From Desulfoscipio sp. XC116 (GTDB taxonomy: Bacteria > Bacillota > Desulfotomaculia > Desulfotomaculales > Desulfallaceae): a DNA stretch of 64,000 nucleotides. Where the stretch lies: assembly GCF_039851975.1 (NCBI RefSeq), contig NZ_CP156660.1:930001-994000 (forward strand), read 5' to 3'. The notes beneath the pieces are model-generated. The model saw nothing but the letters and a program-made list of their open reading frames with translations, was not told where the DNA came from and made no database searches. The position numbers and the translations under genes are program-made. This document shows positions 10,740-19,168 of the stretch, piece by piece (positions within the stretch are counted from its first letter, which is position 1; the number at the start of each line of letters is the position of its first letter).

Positions 10740-12089
10740 CTATATTTGTCCCGAGATCTTCCGGCAATACTCTTTGATCTTGACGCACCGGTAATGGTTC
10801 TTCACGATGCTTTCCAGGTGGAACCTGATTTCCGAGCACTCCGGCTTGCCGCCGTTCATCTTCATGCCCTTGTGGGGACAGCCCCCCATGCACAGGGGCA
10901 AGTATTTGCATTTCCTGCACTGGCTGAAATCAAGGGGATCCCAGGTAAGCCAGTCAATATGGCCGTTTTTTAGCTTCCCGCCCCGGCTCAAATCCACAAT
11001 GTTGCCCACGTTATGCTCTTTGGCGCCGAAATCGCTCCAGCATTTATACAAATAACCCTCCGGGTCCACGGAAAAAGAGTTGATCTGATCGGCACCGCAG
11101 TAATTGGTCCGCCGCCGGGGCAAAAGCTTGCCGTAGTCGGTGGCCAGACCCTTCATAAGCAGCATTTCGAAGAATCTTTTGCTGATCTCCACAAACTCCT
11201 TTTTATTCAGGCAGGATTGCTCGATGGATTTGCAGGCCTCGGTGTAGGGCGCGATCTGGGCGGGGTAGATATTGGCGTTTTTAATCCCTTTGCCCGCCAG
11301 AATATCCAGCAGTTCCTCAATACCGGCCAGGTTCTCGCCGTCTATGTTCACCCGGATATGCACTTTAAGTCCGTTGTTAAGCAGTTCTTTGATGTTGGCC
11401 AGAATTAAACCGAAGCTGTCCCCGCCGCCCGGCAGGTTTCTTTTGCTATTATGCATCTCGGGGGGACCGTCCAGGGTGACCTGAAAAGTACCCACGCCGT
11501 AATCCTTCAGCTTGTTGATTGTACCGGCATCCAGCAGCGCTCCGTTGGTAACCATGAAAGCCGCGTATGAACAGCCGTTCTTCCCGGCCGCGGCGATCAG
11601 TTCCTCGGACAGCCGGTAAATGATCTCCCGCGCCAGCAGCGGCTCGCCCCCGAACCAGGTGATTAGCAGGCGGTTTACCCTGCTGGTGGATCTGGCGGCA
11701 TACTCCACCAGGGCGTCCCGGACTTCCTCAGTCATATCAGTGGCCGGACTGCCGCCCTGGTAACAATAAGGGCATTTAAAGTTGCAGTCCATGGTGGGCG
11801 CGATAGTCAGAGACAATACGTCCCGATTGTATTTCTGACTGTTGGCAGCGTATTTGATCAGCTTCAGCTCATTCACCGGCTCTTCCACCAGAAAACCGTC
11901 CCCAATCAATTCTTCGGCCAGTTTTCTTTCTTGGGCACTCAAAGCTTCCGGGTCCACCTGTTCCGCCTCCAGCAGACGGGCAAAATCGCCGGATATTTCC
12001 GCCAGCCTGGTGGTCAGGCCGTTAAATAACAGCAGGTTATTGCTTTCCTCCAGGGGCCAGACGAAGTTATAGCTGGACGGCTTATACAA
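10740..12089 (-). CDS. Radical SAM/SPASM peptide maturase (second of pair)
   Basis: A 449-residue enzyme. Residues 1-90 form an RRE-like or winged N-terminal part (SSYNFVWPLEESNNLLLFNG...DGFLVEE) typical of RiPP maturases. The SAM [4Fe-4S] cluster motif is CNFKCPYC (Cys102, Cys106, Cys109), followed by WFGGEPLL. The SPASM domain near the C-terminus has CGADQINSFSVDPEGYLYKC, then CRKCKYLPLCMGGCPHKG and a last Cys. It should modify a residue in the peptide made by the nearby precursor gene. The start TTG at 12089 overlaps the end of the first rSAM gene by 8 bp, with GGGGGGAG upstream; a longer frame reaching 12338 is the shadow of that gene. It is the last gene of the cluster. Confidence 0.88.
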   Translation of the reverse strand: MYKPSSYNFVWPLEESNNLLLFNGLTTRLAEISGDFARLLEAEQVDPEALSAQERKLAEELIGDGFLVEEPVNELKLIKYAANSQKYNRDVLSLTIAPTMDCNFKCPYCYQGGSPATDMTEEVRDALVEYAARSTSRVNRLLITWFGGEPLLAREIIYRLSEELIAAAGKNGCSYAAFMVTNGALLDAGTINKLKDYGVGTFQVTLDGPPEMHNSKRNLPGGGDSFGLILANIKELLNNGLKVHIRVNIDGENLAGIEELLDILAGKGIKNANIYPAQIAPYTEACKSIEQSCLNKKEFVEISKRFFEMLLMKGLATDYGKLLPRRRTNYCGADQINSFSVDPEGYLYKCWSDFGAKEHNVGNIVDLSRGGKLKNGHIDWLTWDPLDFSQCRKCKYLPLCMGGCPHKGMKMNGGKPECSEIRFHLESIVKNHYRCVKIKEYCRKISGQI

Positions 12090-13080
12090 CCCGCTCCCCC
12101 CTTTCCCGGAATAAGGAACAGTCTTTCTCGCCGGCGTAAAAAGAGCCGTAAAGCTTTTCGCACACCGCTCGGCAGGTCCGGCAGCGGGGCAGGTGACCGC
12201 AGTCCGAGCAGGGGTAGGCGACATTTTCCTCGGTAGTCCGCAACCGGTCAAGTCCCCGGGAATTATTCCAGTAATCCGCGATACCGGGCCATTTTTCACC
12301 ATGATGATACAGATGTCTGCAGGGCAGGAGTTTCCCATCCGCGCTTATCGCCATGTACTCCCTCCCGGCCGGACAGCCGTTGTACATAACCTTATCGCCA
12401 TACATACTGATCCTCAGCAACGAAAAACATTGTTCAATATAAATCTGCAGTTCTTCGCTGCGGCTTGCTTTGATATATGACCCGAGCCGGGCCAGCTCAG
12501 CGCCGTCCAGAGCGGCGGCGGCGTTCTTTTGGGCATCGGGTTTCAGCCGCAACACGGTAATGGCGCCGATCTTCATCTTTCGGGCCAGTTCGACCAGATG
12601 GGGAAAATCATCGACATTATCTTTTCTGGCCACCCAGTTGATTCCGTGGTTTAAGCCTGATCCCCGCAGCATATGCAGGGCTTCGACGGCATAATGGTAG
12701 CCGTCCCGCGATTGCTCGTGTATTGCCCGGGTTGAGCCGTTTAAAGAAACCCATAAATGGTACAGGCCGGCCTTTTTCAGCTCCCGGATTCGGACCGCGG
12801 ATAACCCGGCGCCGGAGGTGGCCATTAACGAAAACATGCCCAGCGAACTCACCAGCTTAATTATATACTCAAGGTGCGGGTACATGAGCGGCTCGCCCCC
12901 GCCCATGGCAATGGTGCCTACCTTCAGCCCGGCCGCCTCTTTAATGTATCCGGCCAGGATATCCCTGTCTATATCCCTTGGTTCCGGGTCGTTATAGCAC
13001 TGGGGACATTTTAAGGGGCACCGGGAAGTAAGCTCCACCTGAATTGTATCCGGGACTGTTCTTGCCCTATCCTGACGCAT
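12082..13080 (-). CDS. Radical SAM/SPASM peptide maturase (first of pair)
   Basis: A 332-residue radical SAM enzyme with the cluster motif CPLKCPQC (Cys21, Cys25, Cys28), GGGEPLMYP for SAM binding, and a SPASM region (CPAGREYMAISADGKLLPC, then CSDCGHLPRCRTCRAVC and a final Cys). PqqE-like and SPASM peptide maturases share this layout. Unlike its neighbour it lacks an N-terminal peptide-binding extension, so the two may act in sequence or as a complex. The start at 13080 is preferred because AAGGAG stands 7 bp before it; the ATG at 13086 touches the site. It begins 11 bp after the LanM-like gene. Confidence 0.88.
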   Translation of the reverse strand: MRQDRARTVPDTIQVELTSRCPLKCPQCYNDPEPRDIDRDILAGYIKEAAGLKVGTIAMGGGEPLMYPHLEYIIKLVSSLGMFSLMATSGAGLSAVRIRELKKAGLYHLWVSLNGSTRAIHEQSRDGYHYAVEALHMLRGSGLNHGINWVARKDNVDDFPHLVELARKMKIGAITVLRLKPDAQKNAAAALDGAELARLGSYIKASRSEELQIYIEQCFSLLRISMYGDKVMYNGCPAGREYMAISADGKLLPCRHLYHHGEKWPGIADYWNNSRGLDRLRTTEENVAYPCSDCGHLPRCRTCRAVCEKLYGSFYAGEKDCSLFRERGERVV

Positions 13081-13091
13081 GACCATTCTCC

Positions 13092-14678
13092 TTATCCTTT
13101 GTAATAATTTCTGTAAGCGTTGAAAGCGTTTTGCATGACGCCGTGCTGTTTAATCAAATCGTCGCGGCTAAGATGCCTGACTTTTTTCTCTATCCGGTTG
13201 TAGGGAACATTTCTGCCAAGGTCCGTCACCGACAGGCCTTCAAATGACTCAAATTTACCGTCCATAAGATTTATGTAAAACCTGGGGATCACCAATCTGC
13301 CCAGGGACTCGTATTCGTAATTAATGACACTGTTTTTAATTGCCGGATCGGAAACAGCAAGCTCTCCGGCCAGTTGTTCCCAAAGCCCGTTTTTATTTGT
13401 CTCTTTAAGATTAGCGGGCTGCAAAAAGCGGTACAGTATTGAAATATAAAAAGCAACACTTCTGAAGAAAAAACGCACCTTGTCCCCTTTAAACAGCTGC
13501 CTGATCCGGTCCAGGAACTCATCGGAATGGTCCATTATCCAGGCATATACCAGGGTAAAACCCTCCAACACCTGATCGGAGTATTGATATGAAAAGACCC
13601 GGTCGCCGTTTAACTTAACCACGCTTTTAGGGCTGTCAGGAAGGTATTCGAAACCCATACGCATGGCGTCGGTGTTAATATTTGACAGTACCATGTCCTT
13701 GTAATATTTTTCGGTTACCGTTTCCGCCGCCAGGGTGTTGTAGGAGACATAATTGCCGTTTCTTTGGATAAAATGGGCCGGCAGCATGTTAGTGCTCAAT
13801 ATATCCCATTGGTTATTGGTCCCCACCAAGCCTTCCAGGTCGGTCAGCACCGGGTGTTCCCCGCAGGCGATTAAATTGCCGTTATGCATGTCGATACTGC
13901 TGAAAATATAAAGGATGCCCAGTAGCATGCCGCTTTTCAGGTAAAAATTTTTCACCTGTTCTTCTGTTTCACACGGGCGGTGCTGTACAAATTCGGCCCA
14001 GCCATAGTCTTTACGATTTAAAACTTTTACCGCTTTTAATTGTACGCCGCCGACGCTGTTGTTCAACCACTGAATTAATTGATCAAAAGAGTTTTCGATA
14101 TCAATATTCCTGGGCTTGTATACGAGTTTATGGTTTGCAAAGGTTACTATCCCGGTAAAATTGCCGAAATTGGTGGCGTCTTCGAAGGAAACCGAAATAG
14201 AGGAATTATCCACCCTTTGCTGATTGAAAAAAAAACCGGCTATTTCATGCCGGTCCCTTTCCAGGGCGGAAAAGAACCCGGCCATAAAATCCACCCACAA
14301 TATTGCGGTTTCCTTCATTAGTCCGGCCAATAACGGGTACTTGTTAAAAAGATCAATATTCCCCCTGTTTAACATGCCTTGAATAAACCGGTTATACTGC
14401 TCCCTGGAAACACCGGTTTGGTCATCTTCCCGGTCGTCGCCGAGGAACCGGTCAAAGGCGCTCCGGTACTTATACTGTGGATTTAACGCGGAAAACTCGT
14501 AGAATAATACCGCCCGGGAGACCAGGGCAAGCATTTCCCGCAACAGGTCTTTGGCTCCCCCAAGGGCCGCTGTTTCATACATGAAGCCGGATTTCATTTT
14601 TTTAGCCAGGGTTTCTTCTCCGGCCGGTACAAAAGATTCCAGCAGCTCGCCAAAGGGAACGGTTTTAAAGTCGCGCAT
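13092..14678 (-). CDS. LanM-like dehydratase domain protein without cyclase (DUF4135)
   Basis: A 528-residue protein corresponding to the N-terminal dehydratase half of class II lanthipeptide synthetases. Lipid-kinase-like motifs are present: LVYKPR (Lys188, Arg190), DMHNGNLI (Asp263, His265, Asn266, Asn268) and LTDLEGL (Asp280, Glu282). In LanM these residues phosphorylate Ser/Thr with ATP and eliminate phosphate to give Dha/Dhb. The LanC-like cyclase half with its zinc ligands is absent; full LanM proteins are about 1000 residues. A free-standing dehydratase or a peptide kinase is therefore expected. A TTG at 14696 is an alternative start. It lies just downstream of the precursor gene and a strong hairpin. 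Confidence 0.85.
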   Translation of the reverse strand: MRDFKTVPFGELLESFVPAGEETLAKKMKSGFMYETAALGGAKDLLREMLALVSRAVLFYEFSALNPQYKYRSAFDRFLGDDREDDQTGVSREQYNRFIQGMLNRGNIDLFNKYPLLAGLMKETAILWVDFMAGFFSALERDRHEIAGFFFNQQRVDNSSISVSFEDATNFGNFTGIVTFANHKLVYKPRNIDIENSFDQLIQWLNNSVGGVQLKAVKVLNRKDYGWAEFVQHRPCETEEQVKNFYLKSGMLLGILYIFSSIDMHNGNLIACGEHPVLTDLEGLVGTNNQWDILSTNMLPAHFIQRNGNYVSYNTLAAETVTEKYYKDMVLSNINTDAMRMGFEYLPDSPKSVVKLNGDRVFSYQYSDQVLEGFTLVYAWIMDHSDEFLDRIRQLFKGDKVRFFFRSVAFYISILYRFLQPANLKETNKNGLWEQLAGELAVSDPAIKNSVINYEYESLGRLVIPRFYINLMDGKFESFEGLSVTDLGRNVPYNRIEKKVRHLSRDDLIKQHGVMQNAFNAYRNYYKG

Positions 14679-14712
14679 CTGACCGTCTACCCCCAATTTC
14701 CTGAAGTACTCG

Positions 14713-14759
14713 GTAAAAGCCGGTAAGAATATAAAACAAGTAATCTTACCGGCTTTTAC
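14713..14759 (-). terminator. Perfect 16-bp hairpin between precursor and enzymes
   Basis: Arms GTAAAAGCCGGTAAGA and TCTTACCGGCTTTTAC, perfectly complementary, around a 15-nt loop. It lies between the precursor gene and the LanM-like gene. Such hairpins commonly act as partial terminators or 3' stabilisers so that the precursor peptide is made in excess of its enzymes. On the minus strand the arm ends TTTTAC, so read-through is likely. Confidence 0.75.
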
Positions 14760-14770
14760 AAACTAATTAT

Positions 14771-15037
14771 TTACCAGTTAGCGCTAAAGCTAATGCACCA
14801 AAAACCGCCGGCGACATTATCCATCTCATCGTCCGACAATTCTTCAGGGTTCCTGGGGATCTTGATGTAAACCGTATCGGCTGTCTCTTCGACGGCCTTG
14901 ACCACCATGTTTTCCGGCAGAGCCTTGCCTACTTCCTTCTCGACAGCGGCCTTCGGATCGGCCAGAAGCTGCTTTTTAAACTCGCTGTCCGTCCATGCTT
15001 TTTTGATCAGCTTTTCTTCCAGTTCTTTTCTTTTCAT
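14771..15037 (-). CDS. RiPP precursor peptide, NHLP-type leader with 10-residue core
   Basis: An 88-residue precursor. Residues 1-78 form a leader of the NHLP (nitrile hydratase alpha-like) type, with KAWTDSEFKKQLLADPKAAV, a central strand VYIKIPRNPEELSDDEMDNV, and the cleavage site AGG. The core is FWCISFSANW (one Cys, two Ser, two Trp, two Phe). A C39-type peptidase would be expected to cut after GG, but none is found in the window. The start ATG at 15037 follows GGGGGTACC. Ser5 and Ser7 of the core are candidate substrates for the dehydratase; Trp, Cys and Asn are candidates for radical chemistry. Only one copy is present. Confidence 0.88.
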   Translation of the reverse strand: MKRKELEEKLIKKAWTDSEFKKQLLADPKAAVEKEVGKALPENMVVKAVEETADTVYIKIPRNPEELSDDEMDNVAGGFWCISFSANW

Positions 15038-15252
15038 TACTTGGTACCCCCTTTTTTTATTAATCATCGGGTCGGGCAAAACCCTAACCCTTGATTGCCT
15101 ATTAATGTTGAGGCTGTATGTTAATACGCCTGTCCCGGCGATCCATTACATGAAAAGACTAAATGACCACCGGCTAAAGCCTGCTGAAAGCAACCATTGG
15201 CTGAATGCCAACTTAAGCTCATGACTGAAACTCATGTGGTTAGCGTATGGAC
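15038..15252. other. Intergenic stretch, probable promoter of precursor gene
   Basis: This 215-nt gap separates the sigma-factor pair from the precursor gene on the minus strand. No terminator or known riboswitch is seen. It is the likely place for an ECF-dependent promoter of the peptide gene. Confidence 0.35.
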
Positions 15253-15579
15253 TCAGTCCTCGTCCGGCGGTTCAAAATCAGTACCGGCCGCAGCCACCAG
15301 GTCCAATTGGTCGTCGTCCAGCTCATCGCTGTCAATGGGCGCTCCCGGACGGTCGCTTTGATGTCCCAAAACACCGGCCAACAGACGTTTCTTAAGCCCA
15401 TCCCGTATCCCGCACCGGCCGGCCGGATCATCGGCTGCCAGGTACCTGGCCAGGCCGACAGCCCGGTTATATTCCTCCGGCATTCCGGCGGACGATATCT
15501 TCCGGGACGGATTTTCAATTAACTTATCTATATCCCGGCTGAACCGTTCAGCCAGTTCCTGTTCTTTAGTCATTTGCAT
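15253..15579 (-). CDS. Small sigma-factor-associated protein (possible anti-sigma)
   Basis: A 108-residue, soluble, acidic protein encoded directly after the ECF sigma gene with a 14-bp overlap. The central part (NRAVGLARYLAADDPAG...IRDGLKKRLLAG) resembles small proteins that follow ECF sigma genes in several Firmicutes and Chloroflexi. The C-terminal DSDELDDDQLDLVAAAG is curiously like the end of a RiPP leader (ELSDDELDxVAGG), but what follows (TDFEPPDED) has no core-like residues. Either it is an anti-sigma/co-factor or it senses the leader-processing machinery. ATG at 15573 is an alternative start. Confidence 0.6.
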   Translation of the reverse strand: MQMTKEQELAERFSRDIDKLIENPSRKISSAGMPEEYNRAVGLARYLAADDPAGRCGIRDGLKKRLLAGVLGHQSDRPGAPIDSDELDDDQLDLVAAAGTDFEPPDED

Positions 15580-16120
15580 GCCACCCCATGGCTTCCAGTT
15601 CGCCTCTTAACCTCTGCACCGACCGGTATATGATTACGGCCACATTGCTCGTGGTCAGACCGGTCATTTCCGCTATTTCAATATTAGTCAACTGGCAAGC
15701 GAATTTAAGGCCGATAATATCCCGTTCCCGGCCGCTGAGTTTTTCCAGCGCCTGCAGCAGCTTGTCCCGCCTCTCCCCGCGAATCAGGCTCTCCTCGGGA
15801 CTGCTATTGGTACACGCAATCTGCCCTATTATCTCCATCGACATGTGCCTGTCACGCTTCCGGGCGCGGGTATAATCGATCAGAATATTGCGGGCAACAG
15901 CAAAAATCCAACCGTTGAAAGTACCTTTATCCCTTCGGTAGCTGTTGATTTTCACCACTACCCGCTCGAAAATTCTACTGGTGAGTTCGTCAGCCTCTTG
16001 CGGATCCCCGACGCGGTAACGGATGTACTTGTATATGCGGGGCAGGTAGTGATCGTATAATTCCGCAAAGGCAGCCGGGTCGCCGGCGGACCGGGCCGCA
16101 AGATCCTGAATCGAAACCAT
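15566..16120 (-). CDS. ECF-type RNA polymerase sigma factor
   Basis: A 184-residue sigma-70 family protein with region 2 (AFAELYDHYLPRIYKYIRYRVGDPQEADELTSRIFERVV...FNGWIFAVARNILIDYTR) and region 4 (LEKLSGRERDIIGLKFACQLTNIEIAEMTGLTTSNVAVIIYRSVQRLR). It would direct RNA polymerase to the promoters of its regulon, probably including the precursor-maturase operon just downstream. It is divergent from the TetR gene at 16324. No zinc-finger anti-sigma is adjacent; the small downstream protein may play that part. Confidence 0.88.
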   Translation of the reverse strand: MVSIQDLAARSAGDPAAFAELYDHYLPRIYKYIRYRVGDPQEADELTSRIFERVVVKINSYRRDKGTFNGWIFAVARNILIDYTRARKRDRHMSMEIIGQIACTNSSPEESLIRGERRDKLLQALEKLSGRERDIIGLKFACQLTNIEIAEMTGLTTSNVAVIIYRSVQRLRGELEAMGWHAND

Positions 16121-16199
16121 TTTTCTATAAAACCCCTTACTGTTAATACGTTGTCGTCAGCCTTGCATTACAAATTGTTTTGATAAATTACTCGCGTTG

Positions 16200-16987: not shown

Positions 16988-17148
16988 TCATCTTTTAAGT
17001 TCCCTCAACGCTTCCTCTACATCGCTGTGGCGTTTTGCATTGGGGTCGCGGGAAATACGTTCGGCCTCCTGCATCGCTGCAATGGTTTCCGCATCGGGCT
17101 GGTTGAGTGAAACGTCAAAGGGAATCCGGCCTTCCCGAAGCGATTGAC
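16988..17148 (-). pseudogene. C-terminal half of a RelB/DinJ antitoxin
   Basis: The minus-strand frame reads REGRIPFDVSLNQPDAETIA followed by AMQEAERISRDPNAKRHSDVEEALRELKR and a stop at 16988. This is the C-terminal region of RelB/DinJ antitoxins. The N-terminal ribbon-helix-helix is missing because the frame is cut at about 17148, where the substrate-binding protein sequence begins. No toxin is seen. Confidence 0.65.
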
Positions 17149-17940
17149 GGACGCTTTAGTACTTGTGTTATGTCTTGGCTTGCTGGCCGGCTGCGGACAA
17201 ACCGTAAACCGGCAGAATGCGAAAAACAAAAACAGTGACCCAGTCAAGCAATCAGTTATTACCGTAGTCGCTCCTAAATCACCCGCCTCGATCCCGCTTT
17301 TCCGAATGATTGCAAGCAATTGCCTGGGAAAGGATATTCAGGTCAACCTTCAATTTTACAGCGATATGGAGGCAATGATGGCCTTGGCCTCCGGCGGAAA
17401 TTACGGAGTTTTAATCGTGCCGGTGCATACCGCAGCCAATCTTTACAATAAAGAAATAGGCGTCGAACTGATTAATGTATGCGGCTGGGGCGGAATGTAT
17501 CTGAGTACAACCGACCCGGATTGTAACAGCTGGGGGGATCTCGGGGGCAAGGAACTATATGTTCCGTCAAAAGGTTCTGTTCCGGATATTTTAACCCAAT
17601 ACTTTCTTAATCAACATGGTCTTGTGATCGGGGAAGATGTTGAGCTCGTATATTCATCACATATAGAAATTGCGCAGCTGCTATCGGCGGGAACCATAAA
17701 GTATGCCGTTGACGCGCAGCCATATGTTACATCGAACACAAAAAACGTTCAAAACTATAAGGTTATCTCCAAGTTTGCCGAGGAATGGAGGCTGATACAA
17801 GGAGCCGGATATACCATGCCTGCCAATTGTATGGTGGCAAACTCAGAATACTTAAGCGGAAACGAAGAAATAATCACGGCTTTTAATCAAAAATTTGCAG
17901 AGGCTTCGACCTTACAGCGCATGATTTATCGCCTGCCCGC
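17144..17940 (+). pseudogene. ABC transporter substrate-binding lipoprotein, truncated and fused
   Basis: The frame begins within a lipoprotein signal peptide (LVLCLGLLAGCGQ) and continues as a periplasmic-binding-type fold of the NMT1/TauA kind (LIVPVHTAANLYN, GWGGMYLSTTDP, LGGKELYVPSKGSVPDIL, AVDAQPYV). At about 17940 the same open frame passes into shifted sequence of a different gene, so the C-terminal part is lost. The N-terminal start is also at a junction with the RelB fragment. It probably does not make a working transporter component. Confidence 0.6.
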
Positions 17941-19168
17941 ATGGAGGAAGCGCCGTCAAACGACAGCGAAGACTCTTACAATGAAACGGTGCGCAAGCTT
18001 GTGTTTCAGGATTATATTCCGGAAGCCTCCGCAAAAAGGACGGTGGGTATCCCCCTGGCCCTCTTTACCTATGGGATGTTTTCCCTGTTTAACGCGTTTT
18101 TTAAGGAACTGGGCTTTAACGTGCTATTGTCGGACCCGACAAGCGAAAAAACCGTTGCCCTTGGCCAGCAGTACGCTTTGGATGAAACCTTCCATTGAAA
18201 TCGGCCGCAAGTTTACGATAACCGAAGAATACTTTTCTCTTACGGCTTTGTTGGGCGGCATTTTCGAAGAGTTGAACGAAATCGGCAAACAAGAAGCGGA
18301 TAACATGGTTTTCCTTGTTCCTCAAAACGAGGGGACGGAGACGGACGGTCAATACAGCCGCCTGCTTAGAACAAAGCTTGACGAAGAAGGCTTTGCCAAC
18401 GTGGGTGTATTATCCCCCTTCTGGGAGGATATTCTTGGGGGAGACGAAACGGCCTTCAACACAATCAGCTTGTGCCTGCTTGCCGGGGATATCGTTTGGC
18501 ACGCGCCTTATAAATCGCGGGGAAAGCATCTGCATACGCTGATCGAACTGATCAGAAATGAACGGCTGGACATCAAGCAATTGAAACTGGTTGCGCGGGA
18601 AATATCCAAAGAACTCTCCGGAGTAAGCCTTGCTAAAAAGGTCCTGGCTGTCGGGGAATTCAACATCCTGTTTGACGAGCTGTTAAACAGCGGTATTTTC
18701 CGAGAGCTTGAGAACAAAGGCCACCGGGTCATATACAGTCCTTTCAGCGAGGCAATGTGGATGATGTGGCGCGACTACGCCGACCAGAATCATGATGGAA
18801 ATCCGGAACTGGCTGAAAAAAGACTGGAGCATTTAAAGGAAAATATCAAGGCCGTTTCCAACGCGTTGTCGGATCAAAGCGCTTTTGCGGCGGATACGGA
18901 TATCCTTGTCCGGATTGCGGATAAAACATTGGGCTTCTACTCAGGCGCACACGGAAGGTACAGACAGACCAAGCAGCTTTGCGGCTTGCCGCATATCGAC
19001 AGTGTTATTACCGCCGCTTCCATGTATGAAAACACGGGAATCGTACTTGGCATGCTGCAAAAAGGCTTTGAGAACAAGCAAACGAAGCCTGCCTTAAATC
19101 TTACCTTTGACGGAAATGAAAATAGGAATGACAAAATAAAGGTTGAATCATTTATGTACTATCTTTGA
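17941..19168 (+). pseudogene. Acyl-CoA dehydratase activase-related protein (DUF2229), decayed
   Basis: In one frame (17941-18198) the sequence reads ASAKRTVGIPLALFTYGMFSLFNAFFKELGFNVLLSDPTSEKTV, typical of the DUF2229 part of 2-hydroxyacyl-CoA dehydratase activase-like proteins. From about 18197 another frame continues with FLVPQNEGTETDGQYSRLLRTKLDEEGF, CLLAGDIVWHAPYKSRG and a long helical C-terminus to 19168. A large internal section, including cysteine ligands, is missing and there is a frameshift. It joins without a stop to the preceding lipoprotein frame, creating a 674-codon chimera that is unlikely to be functional. Confidence 0.6.

Follow-up and report, generated by a model that had tools for sequence, protein, structure and literature searches.

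A proteusin-type gene cluster of Desulfoscipio sp. XC116 predicted to join a phospeptin-like LanM kinase with radical SAM chemistry

Introduction

What would a LanM-like enzyme make of its peptide when it carries no cyclase domain and is encoded beside two radical S-adenosylmethionine (SAM) enzymes? This question is raised by six genes lying at 10740-16120, all on the minus strand, of the window, i.e., the whole stretch of 64,000 nucleotides analysed here (positions 930,001 to 994,000 of contig NZ_CP156660.1 of Desulfoscipio sp. XC116). The genes encode a sigma factor of the extracytoplasmic function (ECF) type, a small protein of 108 residues, a precursor peptide, a LanM half, and two radical SAM proteins, named rSAM A and rSAM B. 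An earlier note on this DNA had proposed dehydroalanine (Dha) at Ser5/Ser7 of the peptide core together with radical modifications, a combination for which it could name no class of ribosomally synthesised and post-translationally modified peptides (RiPPs). It is considered here rather probable that this is a proteusin-type cluster joining a phospeptin-like kinase with radical chemistry, while the presence of both phosphoserine and radical-made bonds on the mature decapeptide is a tentative possibility. The genes on which this reading depends are the following:

14771..15037, minus strand: NHLP (nitrile hydratase leader peptide) precursor, 88 residues, ATG at 15037, matching TIGR03793
13092..14678, minus strand: DUF4135-only LanM half, 528 residues, ATG at 14678, predicted Ser/Thr kinase
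12082..13086, minus strand: rSAM A, 334 residues, PqqE-like radical SAM protein with a SPASM-type C-terminus
10740..12089, minus strand: rSAM B, 449 residues, TTG at 12089, radical SAM/SPASM maturase related to thioether-forming enzymes

The Precursor Peptide

The precursor matches the NHLP model TIGR03793 with 93.5 bits (cut-off 50.9) and the Nif11 model with 18.2 bits, below its cut-off of 32.3, and it is the sole TIGR03793 match in the 4.26-Mb genome at E <= 0.001. Its leader ends in DNVAGG and is followed, as the earlier note had described, by a core of ten residues, FWCISFSANW, with one Cys and with Ser two and four residues after it. Since the leader is of the NHLP type, the cluster is a proteusin. 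Thus, the claim that no RiPP class could be named is overstated, although no equivalent was found in the literature searched (see below). Moreover, the polytheonamide pathway already pairs a LanM devoid of a cyclase with radical SAM enzymes (PoyF with PoyB, PoyC, and PoyD).

The LanM Half: Probably a Kinase Rather than a Dehydratase

The LanM half contains a LanM dehydratase domain (PF13575, 264 bits, cut-off 29) and passes the LanM model TIGR03897 (333 bits, cut-off 304), with a match confined to positions 1-524 of 932. The LanC-like zinc cyclase of class II lanthipeptide synthetases is lacking from it and, as rSAM A starts 5 nt downstream, there is neither a fused nor an adjacent cyclase. 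Alignment by phmmer relates the protein to LicM2 (2.7e-40) and CylM (1.1e-21). Its AlphaFold model, built from an alignment named A3 (pLDDT 82.7, pTM 0.87), superposes on LicM2 over 453 residues (Z 29.6, root-mean-square deviation 2.8) and on CylM over 428 residues (Z 27.6, root-mean-square deviation 2.4), values that indicate that the fold of LanM dehydratases is kept.

In LanM enzymes, the active-site residues K274, D347, H349, N352, and D364 are conserved and required for dehydration, while the elimination of phosphate by CylM requires D252, H254, R506, and T512, the T512A variant having lost elimination and giving no dehydrated product (PMC4550811). All five residues of the first set are retained in the LanM half, so that the statement of the earlier note that the kinase-like residues are intact is borne out. 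It had overlooked changes among the four residues of the second set, of which only D252 and R506 remain, H254 and T512 having become Thr and Val, respectively.

Both replacements are exceptional in an alignment of 36 homologs, which comprises seven proteins from the order (the second LanM of this genome included), two from the phylum, two from plasmids, and 25 of the 26 loci of a scan of genome_contigs; the 26th locus was omitted as the same protein as L024, and two rows from streptococci (L086 and L087) appear to be one sequence. The H254 position is occupied by His in 35 of the 35 homologs that have it, and the T512 position by Thr in 32, Ser in two, and Asp in one of 35 homologs, with Val in none. 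The A3 alignment (18 of the 26 scan loci, excluding L082, L087, L088, L089, L091, L095, L096, and L099) gives His and Thr at these two positions in 18 of 18 proteins. Among the aligned homologs, only the window protein pairs an intact first residue set with the loss of both His and Thr. Two homologs deviate in other ways: L076 has Phe at the H349 position, and a LanM-like protein of Ktedonobacteraceae (L082:7905-10562) has Asn, Thr, and Gln at D347, H349, and N352 and Asp at T512, and is possibly non-catalytic.

Given these two replacements, the LanM half appears likelier to be a kinase than a dehydratase, and phospho-Ser at position 5 and/or 7 appears a more likely product than Dha, the default of the earlier note. 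A precedent is offered by EmbM, a lone LanM dehydration domain with mutated key residues at the elimination site, which yields the diphosphorylated linear peptide phospeptin (PMC9259500). PoyF also lacks a cyclase and yet dehydrates (PMC9505594). Therefore, the missing cyclase does not decide the question by itself, and it is the residues that favour a kinase.

No close relative of the LanM half was detected in 100 related genomes (seven with a match including its own, the best foreign one at 32% identity), in 398 genomes of the phylum (three with a match, its own counted), or, as single query, in genome_contigs and viral_contigs. The phage search returned one record only, at 25%, and the plasmid search 188 records, all below 60% identity, the 15 listed lying at 23-30%. 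A search of the order for the DUF4135 family found it in seven of 113 genomes, the window protein alone lying in a frame of fewer than 600 codons. Likewise, a DNA search of 113 genomes gave ten with a match (its own included), mostly short, among which no complete counterpart of the cluster was seen; the best matches were a fragment of rSAM B at a contig end (81%; G019, L023) and a precursor leader with a different core (75%; G092, L069). An NHLP search of G019 returned no match, a result that does not establish absence.

Two Radical SAM Enzymes

The claim of two radical SAM proteins with SPASM domains also holds, clearly for rSAM B and, as a SPASM-type C-terminus, for rSAM A. rSAM B matches the SPASM model TIGR04085 with 60 bits (cut-off 27) and carries the CxxxCxxC motif of radical SAM enzymes as CNFKCPYC. 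The NCBIfam models that fit it best describe peptide maturases, none reaching its cut-off (Clo7bot TIGR04334 with 416 bits against a cut-off of 600, TIGR04463 with 286, and CefB with 257), and among the best 25 of its 76 NCBIfam matches no equivalog cut-off is passed. The closest solved chain is 5wgg (2.8e-12), the thioether-forming enzyme CteB. By its nearest relatives, rSAM B would be a maturase of the thioether type.

Relatives of rSAM B were examined at 17 loci, at 33-43% identity over most of the protein or, at L023, as an 85% fragment. At 13 of the 17 loci, an NHLP-like precursor is encoded on the same strand as the relative and no more than 400 nt from it, and the nearest core holds a Cys in all 13; examples are GACKGFCVHDVI, SCKDFCVHDIF (L027, L035), DTYSCFCYKKIHS, CSCTMGQIAIEPPLR (L037, L041), SCRVIF, and three cores in L042. 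The Gly-Gly of the L036 precursor is not clear, and the rSAM B gene of L028 is interrupted by a stop. Elsewhere, the nearest recognised precursor of L031 is 6.7 kb away and has a Cys, no precursor was seen at L023 (contig end), L038, or L039, and at L165 a Cys-less core is encoded on the opposite strand, 1.5 kb away from rSAM B.

rSAM A reaches 21.0 bits with the Pfam SPASM model, slightly under the cut-off of 21.5, carries the motif CPLKCPQC, and finds its best solved match in PqqE (2.4e-19). At 41% identity or more it occurs in five of 113 genomes of the order, its own included, the next best match being at 28%. The four foreign relatives (41-44% identity) adjoin a GNAT-like gene, for which the Pfam matches in L070 are below cut-off, and a gene for a substrate-binding protein; L070, L112, and L114 also carry ABC transporter genes whose products share 69-88% identity with the exporter encoded in this genome, and the L113 locus ends early at a contig end. 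The short cores of two relatives, HSVNIDINW (L070) and GINININFDTSRW (L114), end in Trp, while the core of L112, VSAKPLIAGYLAYGVPIHGRLGWKIPK, is longer and has no terminal Trp; a possible second precursor there appears only as an antisense frame. Both FWCISFSANW and HSVNIDINW end in Asn-Trp and alternate hydrophobic residues, a hint, from few cores, that the Asn-Trp ending could be linked to rSAM A. Between the precursor and rSAM A genes, L070 (5706-6764) and L114 (10422-11681) encode a protein of 352-419 residues (49% mutual identity), the L070 copy of which matched nothing in Pfam or NCBIfam. For neither rSAM A nor rSAM B was a model of a PoyD-type epimerase or a cobalamin-dependent methyltransferase among the best 25 NCBIfam matches, no search dedicated to such models having been made.

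Exporter and Second LanM of the Genome

An export system of the NHLP type is present in the genome at L065 (C1, ~3.876-3.882 Mb), where an ABC protein with peptidase (TIGR03796, 1092 bits), a second ABC protein (TIGR03797, 956 bits), and an HlyD protein (TIGR03794, 359 bits) all exceed their cut-offs; such exporters are frequent companions of proteusins without strictly defining them. L065 also encodes a DUF7005 protein (73% identity with the PF22541-matching protein of L070), another ECF sigma factor, another small gene, and, judged by eye, a Nif11-like precursor of its own.

The genome has a second LanM (L025:6582-9740; G000:C1 ~3.86 Mb), in which all nine dehydratase residues are kept. Its LanC-like domain reads GWG where four of the five other full-length proteins of alignment A1 read CCG, the zinc site of the cyclase; a LanM of the same genus (L040) reads SWG there. 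A radical SAM-like gene is found nearby and a Nif11-like precursor ~7 kb off, both recognised by eye.

Proposed Pathway

The following pathway would be consistent with these data. A proteusin-type RiPP operon adjoins its own ECF sigma gene, and matching promoters would drive the sigma and precursor genes. The NHLP leader, as is known for the class, would guide the enzymes to the core. There, the LanM half, to judge by its residues, would phosphorylate Ser5 and/or Ser7 of FWCISFSANW, the phosphate being retained, and rSAM B, to judge by its relatives, would form a thioether or related bond at the sole Cys, Cys3. rSAM A might alter the core, perhaps at its Asn-Trp end, by a PqqE-like oxidative chemistry. 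Finally, cleavage behind Gly-Gly would remove the leader, and the distant NHLP exporter of the same genome would carry the product out of the cell. In a bolder form, phospho-Ser would replace the acidic residue that follows Cys in the Cys-x-x-Asp of several relatives, albeit at a different spacing, and prime the substrate for rSAM B; alternatively, the phosphate might depart during radical C-S bond formation.

Weighing the Alternatives

Several observations count against a kinase joined to radical chemistry. Elimination by CylM H254A is slower and not lost (PMC4550811), and the changed residues cannot be checked in orthologs, as the searches with the LanM half returned no close homolog. The anaerobic sulfatase maturase 4k37 fits rSAM B almost equally well (3.7e-11). 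Several cores of relatives show Cys-x-x-Asp, whereas the spacing of Ser in the window is two and four, not three. Furthermore, five of the six precursors that seeded the precursor search profile have a Cys core, and these loci often carry such cores; hence, the link between rSAM B and Cys is support and not a controlled test. The exporter lies ~2.9 Mb from the cluster in contig coordinates, the second LanM could act in trans, and the core of the promoter-like element described below (TGTAAT-N16-CGTATT) is not enriched genome-wide when one mismatch is allowed (27 sites against 30 of the reversed control).

The alternative that survives best, though unlikely, is that the LanM half is a working dehydratase and that Dha at Ser5/Ser7 accompanies the radical modifications. 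Its fold, its kinase residues, and the retained D252 and R506 would all suit such an enzyme, PoyF shows that a LanM without cyclase can dehydrate, and CylM H254A retains slow elimination; the Val at T512, seen in no homolog and at a position where the T512A change leaves CylM without dehydrated product, speaks against it.

The two replacements could also mark a cluster that is decaying or was acquired in part, with a LanM half that is no longer a functional enzyme. The G+C content of the LanM half, 0.46 against 0.49-0.57 in its neighbours, and the location of the exporter and DUF7005 genes elsewhere point the same way, but none of the six frames is interrupted and each has a plausible start, the five kinase residues are complete, and both promoter-like copies match over 17 bases, so that decay is given only a small chance.

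It is even less expected that the LanM half phosphorylates and another enzyme, e.g., the second LanM, eliminates in trans. CylM does remove phosphate from a phosphorylated peptide if ADP is present (PMC4550811), and the second LanM retains kinase and elimination residues, but it is encoded ~2.9 Mb away among other genes. Finally, an ordinary lanthipeptide, in which the one Cys and two Ser of the core form a single ring through a LanC cyclase encoded elsewhere, as the second LanM with its cyclase domain might suggest, is highly improbable, since GWG in place of CCG makes a cyclase in trans unlikely, and elimination itself is doubtful; the case named by the earlier note as refuting its proposal thus does not seem to apply.

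Relation to Known Systems

The system nearest to the predicted kinase is phospeptin (EmbA/EmbM) of 'Ca. Eudoremicrobium malaspinii', which shares the cyclase-less LanM half, the changed elimination residues, and a double-glycine leader, a likeness that follows the published description of EmbM. The phosphopeptide is demonstrated for phospeptin and predicted for this cluster. The leader of EmbA is of the Nif11 type and the peptide lacks Cys, phospeptin carries phospho-Thr, and EmbM is the sole maturase (PMC9259500, PMC9505594), whereas in this cluster the leader is of the NHLP type, the core has a single Cys and Ser but no Thr, and two radical SAM enzymes are encoded. It therefore resembles phospeptin in a cyclase-less LanM half with kept kinase and changed elimination residues, but neither in a sole maturase nor in a Nif11 leader. 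Phospho-Thr is also borne by phosphorylated salivaricin-type lantibiotics (PMC13219514).

Polytheonamide shares the NHLP leader, PoyF as a LanM without cyclase, and several radical SAM enzymes (PoyB, PoyC, and PoyD), but these are an epimerase and putative cobalamin-dependent methyltransferases (PMC9505594), in contrast to the thioether-type and PqqE-like SPASM enzymes and the ten-residue core of this cluster. Dehydrazoles and carnazolamide likewise combine an NHLP leader with a radical SAM enzyme and a DUF4135 enzyme that lacks a zinc cyclase; in the latter, DUF4135 forms a fusion with a cyclase domain resembling class III and acts only after azole formation by YcaO (PMC10676384), and the window cluster has neither the fusion nor a YcaO. 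Ranthipeptides and sactipeptides (CteB, PapB) are closest to rSAM B by sequence, with CteB as closest solved chain, and differ from this cluster in leader and in the LanM kinase, the bond being predicted here. Landornamides are likewise proteusins with a LanM and a radical SAM enzyme, distinguished by lanthionine rings, a full LanM, and an epimerase; PMC9259500 and PMC9505594 mention them.

In the open-licence literature of PubMed Central, subscription papers lying outside this scope, no cluster of this composition was found in the excerpts available (PMC10676384, PMC4550811, PMC9259500, PMC9505594, PMC13219514, PMC10783134, and PMC2887384 among them), no match to a kinase-type LanM half with Cys-thioether-type and PqqE-like radical enzymes, and no precedent for phosphoserine and radical-made bonds on one RiPP; the sole pathway found with a cyclase-less LanM kinase was phospeptin, a result that its authors termed unexpected. 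The novelty would thus lie in a new mixture of known parts, with a predicted chemistry. If the prediction is true, a second kinase would turn the inspection of Thr512 and His254 into a practical rule by which kinases and dehydratases of the DUF4135 family can be distinguished, and phosphorylation would be shown to combine with radical chemistry. The LanM half passes the NCBI model for LanM lanthipeptide synthetases and so would be labelled as one.

Sigma Factor, Small Protein, and Promoter-Like Element

The features upstream of the modifying enzymes are the following:

15566..16120, minus strand: ECF sigma gene, 184 residues, TIGR02937 with 108 bits (cut-off 42.9)
15253..15579, minus strand: small acidic protein of 108 residues, overlapping the sigma gene by 14 nt, candidate sigma regulator
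16142..16172, minus strand: promoter-like element TGTAATG-N15-CGTATTAAC, upstream of the sigma gene
15120..15150, minus strand: second copy of this promoter-like element, upstream of the precursor gene
14713..14759, minus strand: 16-bp hairpin between the precursor and the LanM half, possible terminator or attenuator

The ECF sigma gene, which the earlier note had recognised together with the common strand of the genes, is nearest to the BldN family among equivalog models (TIGR02952, 157 bits, below the cut-off of 206). Comparison by eye of the regions upstream of the sigma and precursor genes revealed TGTAATG-N15-CGTATTAACA in both, with identical spacing and two copies that are identical across 17 bases. 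As the pattern was derived from these two sites, finding both is no test of it; with two mismatches allowed, the window yields no further site, the expectation from shuffles being 0.16. The genome contains three exact matches to the core TGTAAT-N16-CGTATT, two of them in this cluster.

A shorter form, TGTAAT-N16-CGTAT, gave 27 sites (the two window sites counted) against none of the reversed control in 497 kb from 30 sources, which were chosen for holding such clusters. Their downstream targets, taken as the first plausible frame and read by eye, are 15 precursors, one broken precursor, one precursor-like Nif11-type protein, two sigma genes, one small gene, three GNAT-like genes, one rSAM B, and, at three sites, a different target or no clear one. 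Thus, in several genomes of the order (L026-L042, L068, and L069), this form precedes NHLP and Nif11 precursors, ECF sigma genes, and GNAT-like genes. In 14 genomes likewise chosen for such clusters it totals 72 sites against 27 of the control; G022 has 15 (control 2), all inside 106 kb, while there is no excess in G013 (6 against 5), G070 (4 against 4), G076 (2 against 2), or G085 (2 against 2), and G006 has none. The element is absent from L065, L070, L112, and L114, the sigma factors of which are 32-40% identical to that of the window. The shared element provides a handle on the timing of NHLP cluster expression in this bacterial order.

The protein of 108 residues, which the earlier note had passed over, has no Pfam match, and its C-terminus, ELDDDQLDLVAAAGTDFEPPDED, resembles the end of a double-glycine leader, with VAAAG replacing VAGG. 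In an alignment of eight such small proteins, the window's included, the N-termini are related and the other seven end in VAGG and a short tail. Six of the eight genes adjoin an ECF sigma gene, the sigma gene of L034 is 12 kb off, and none was seen for L067; small proteins beside ECF sigma genes are found at L026:10993-11379, L065:6038-6334, L070:4867-5154, L112:5189-5431, and L114:13341-13631. A role as second precursor was set aside, most relatives adjoining sigma genes. As a guess, the protein might be a leader-mimicking anti-sigma factor that senses the exporter.

Gene Boundaries and Surroundings

The start of rSAM B was set at TTG 12089, which is preceded by GGGGGGAG and overlaps the stop of rSAM A; the relatives in L031 and L042 start at equivalent residues, and the listed ATG at 12338 was dropped. 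Two larger intergenic gaps flank the precursor gene, one of ~215 nt on its 5' side, holding the promoter-like element, and one of 92 nt on its 3' side, holding the hairpin (-26.2 kcal/mol, z -7.7). The hairpin is absent from a consensus terminator scan, which allows only loops of 3-8. The G+C content is 0.46 in the LanM half, 0.49 in the precursor, and 0.53-0.57 in the other four genes, the window mean being 0.44, and this unevenness may reflect a cluster pieced together. Beyond the sigma gene, a frame of 674 residues (17144-19168) shows weak substrate-binding matches in its first third only, is overlapped by other frames, and may hold a frameshift.

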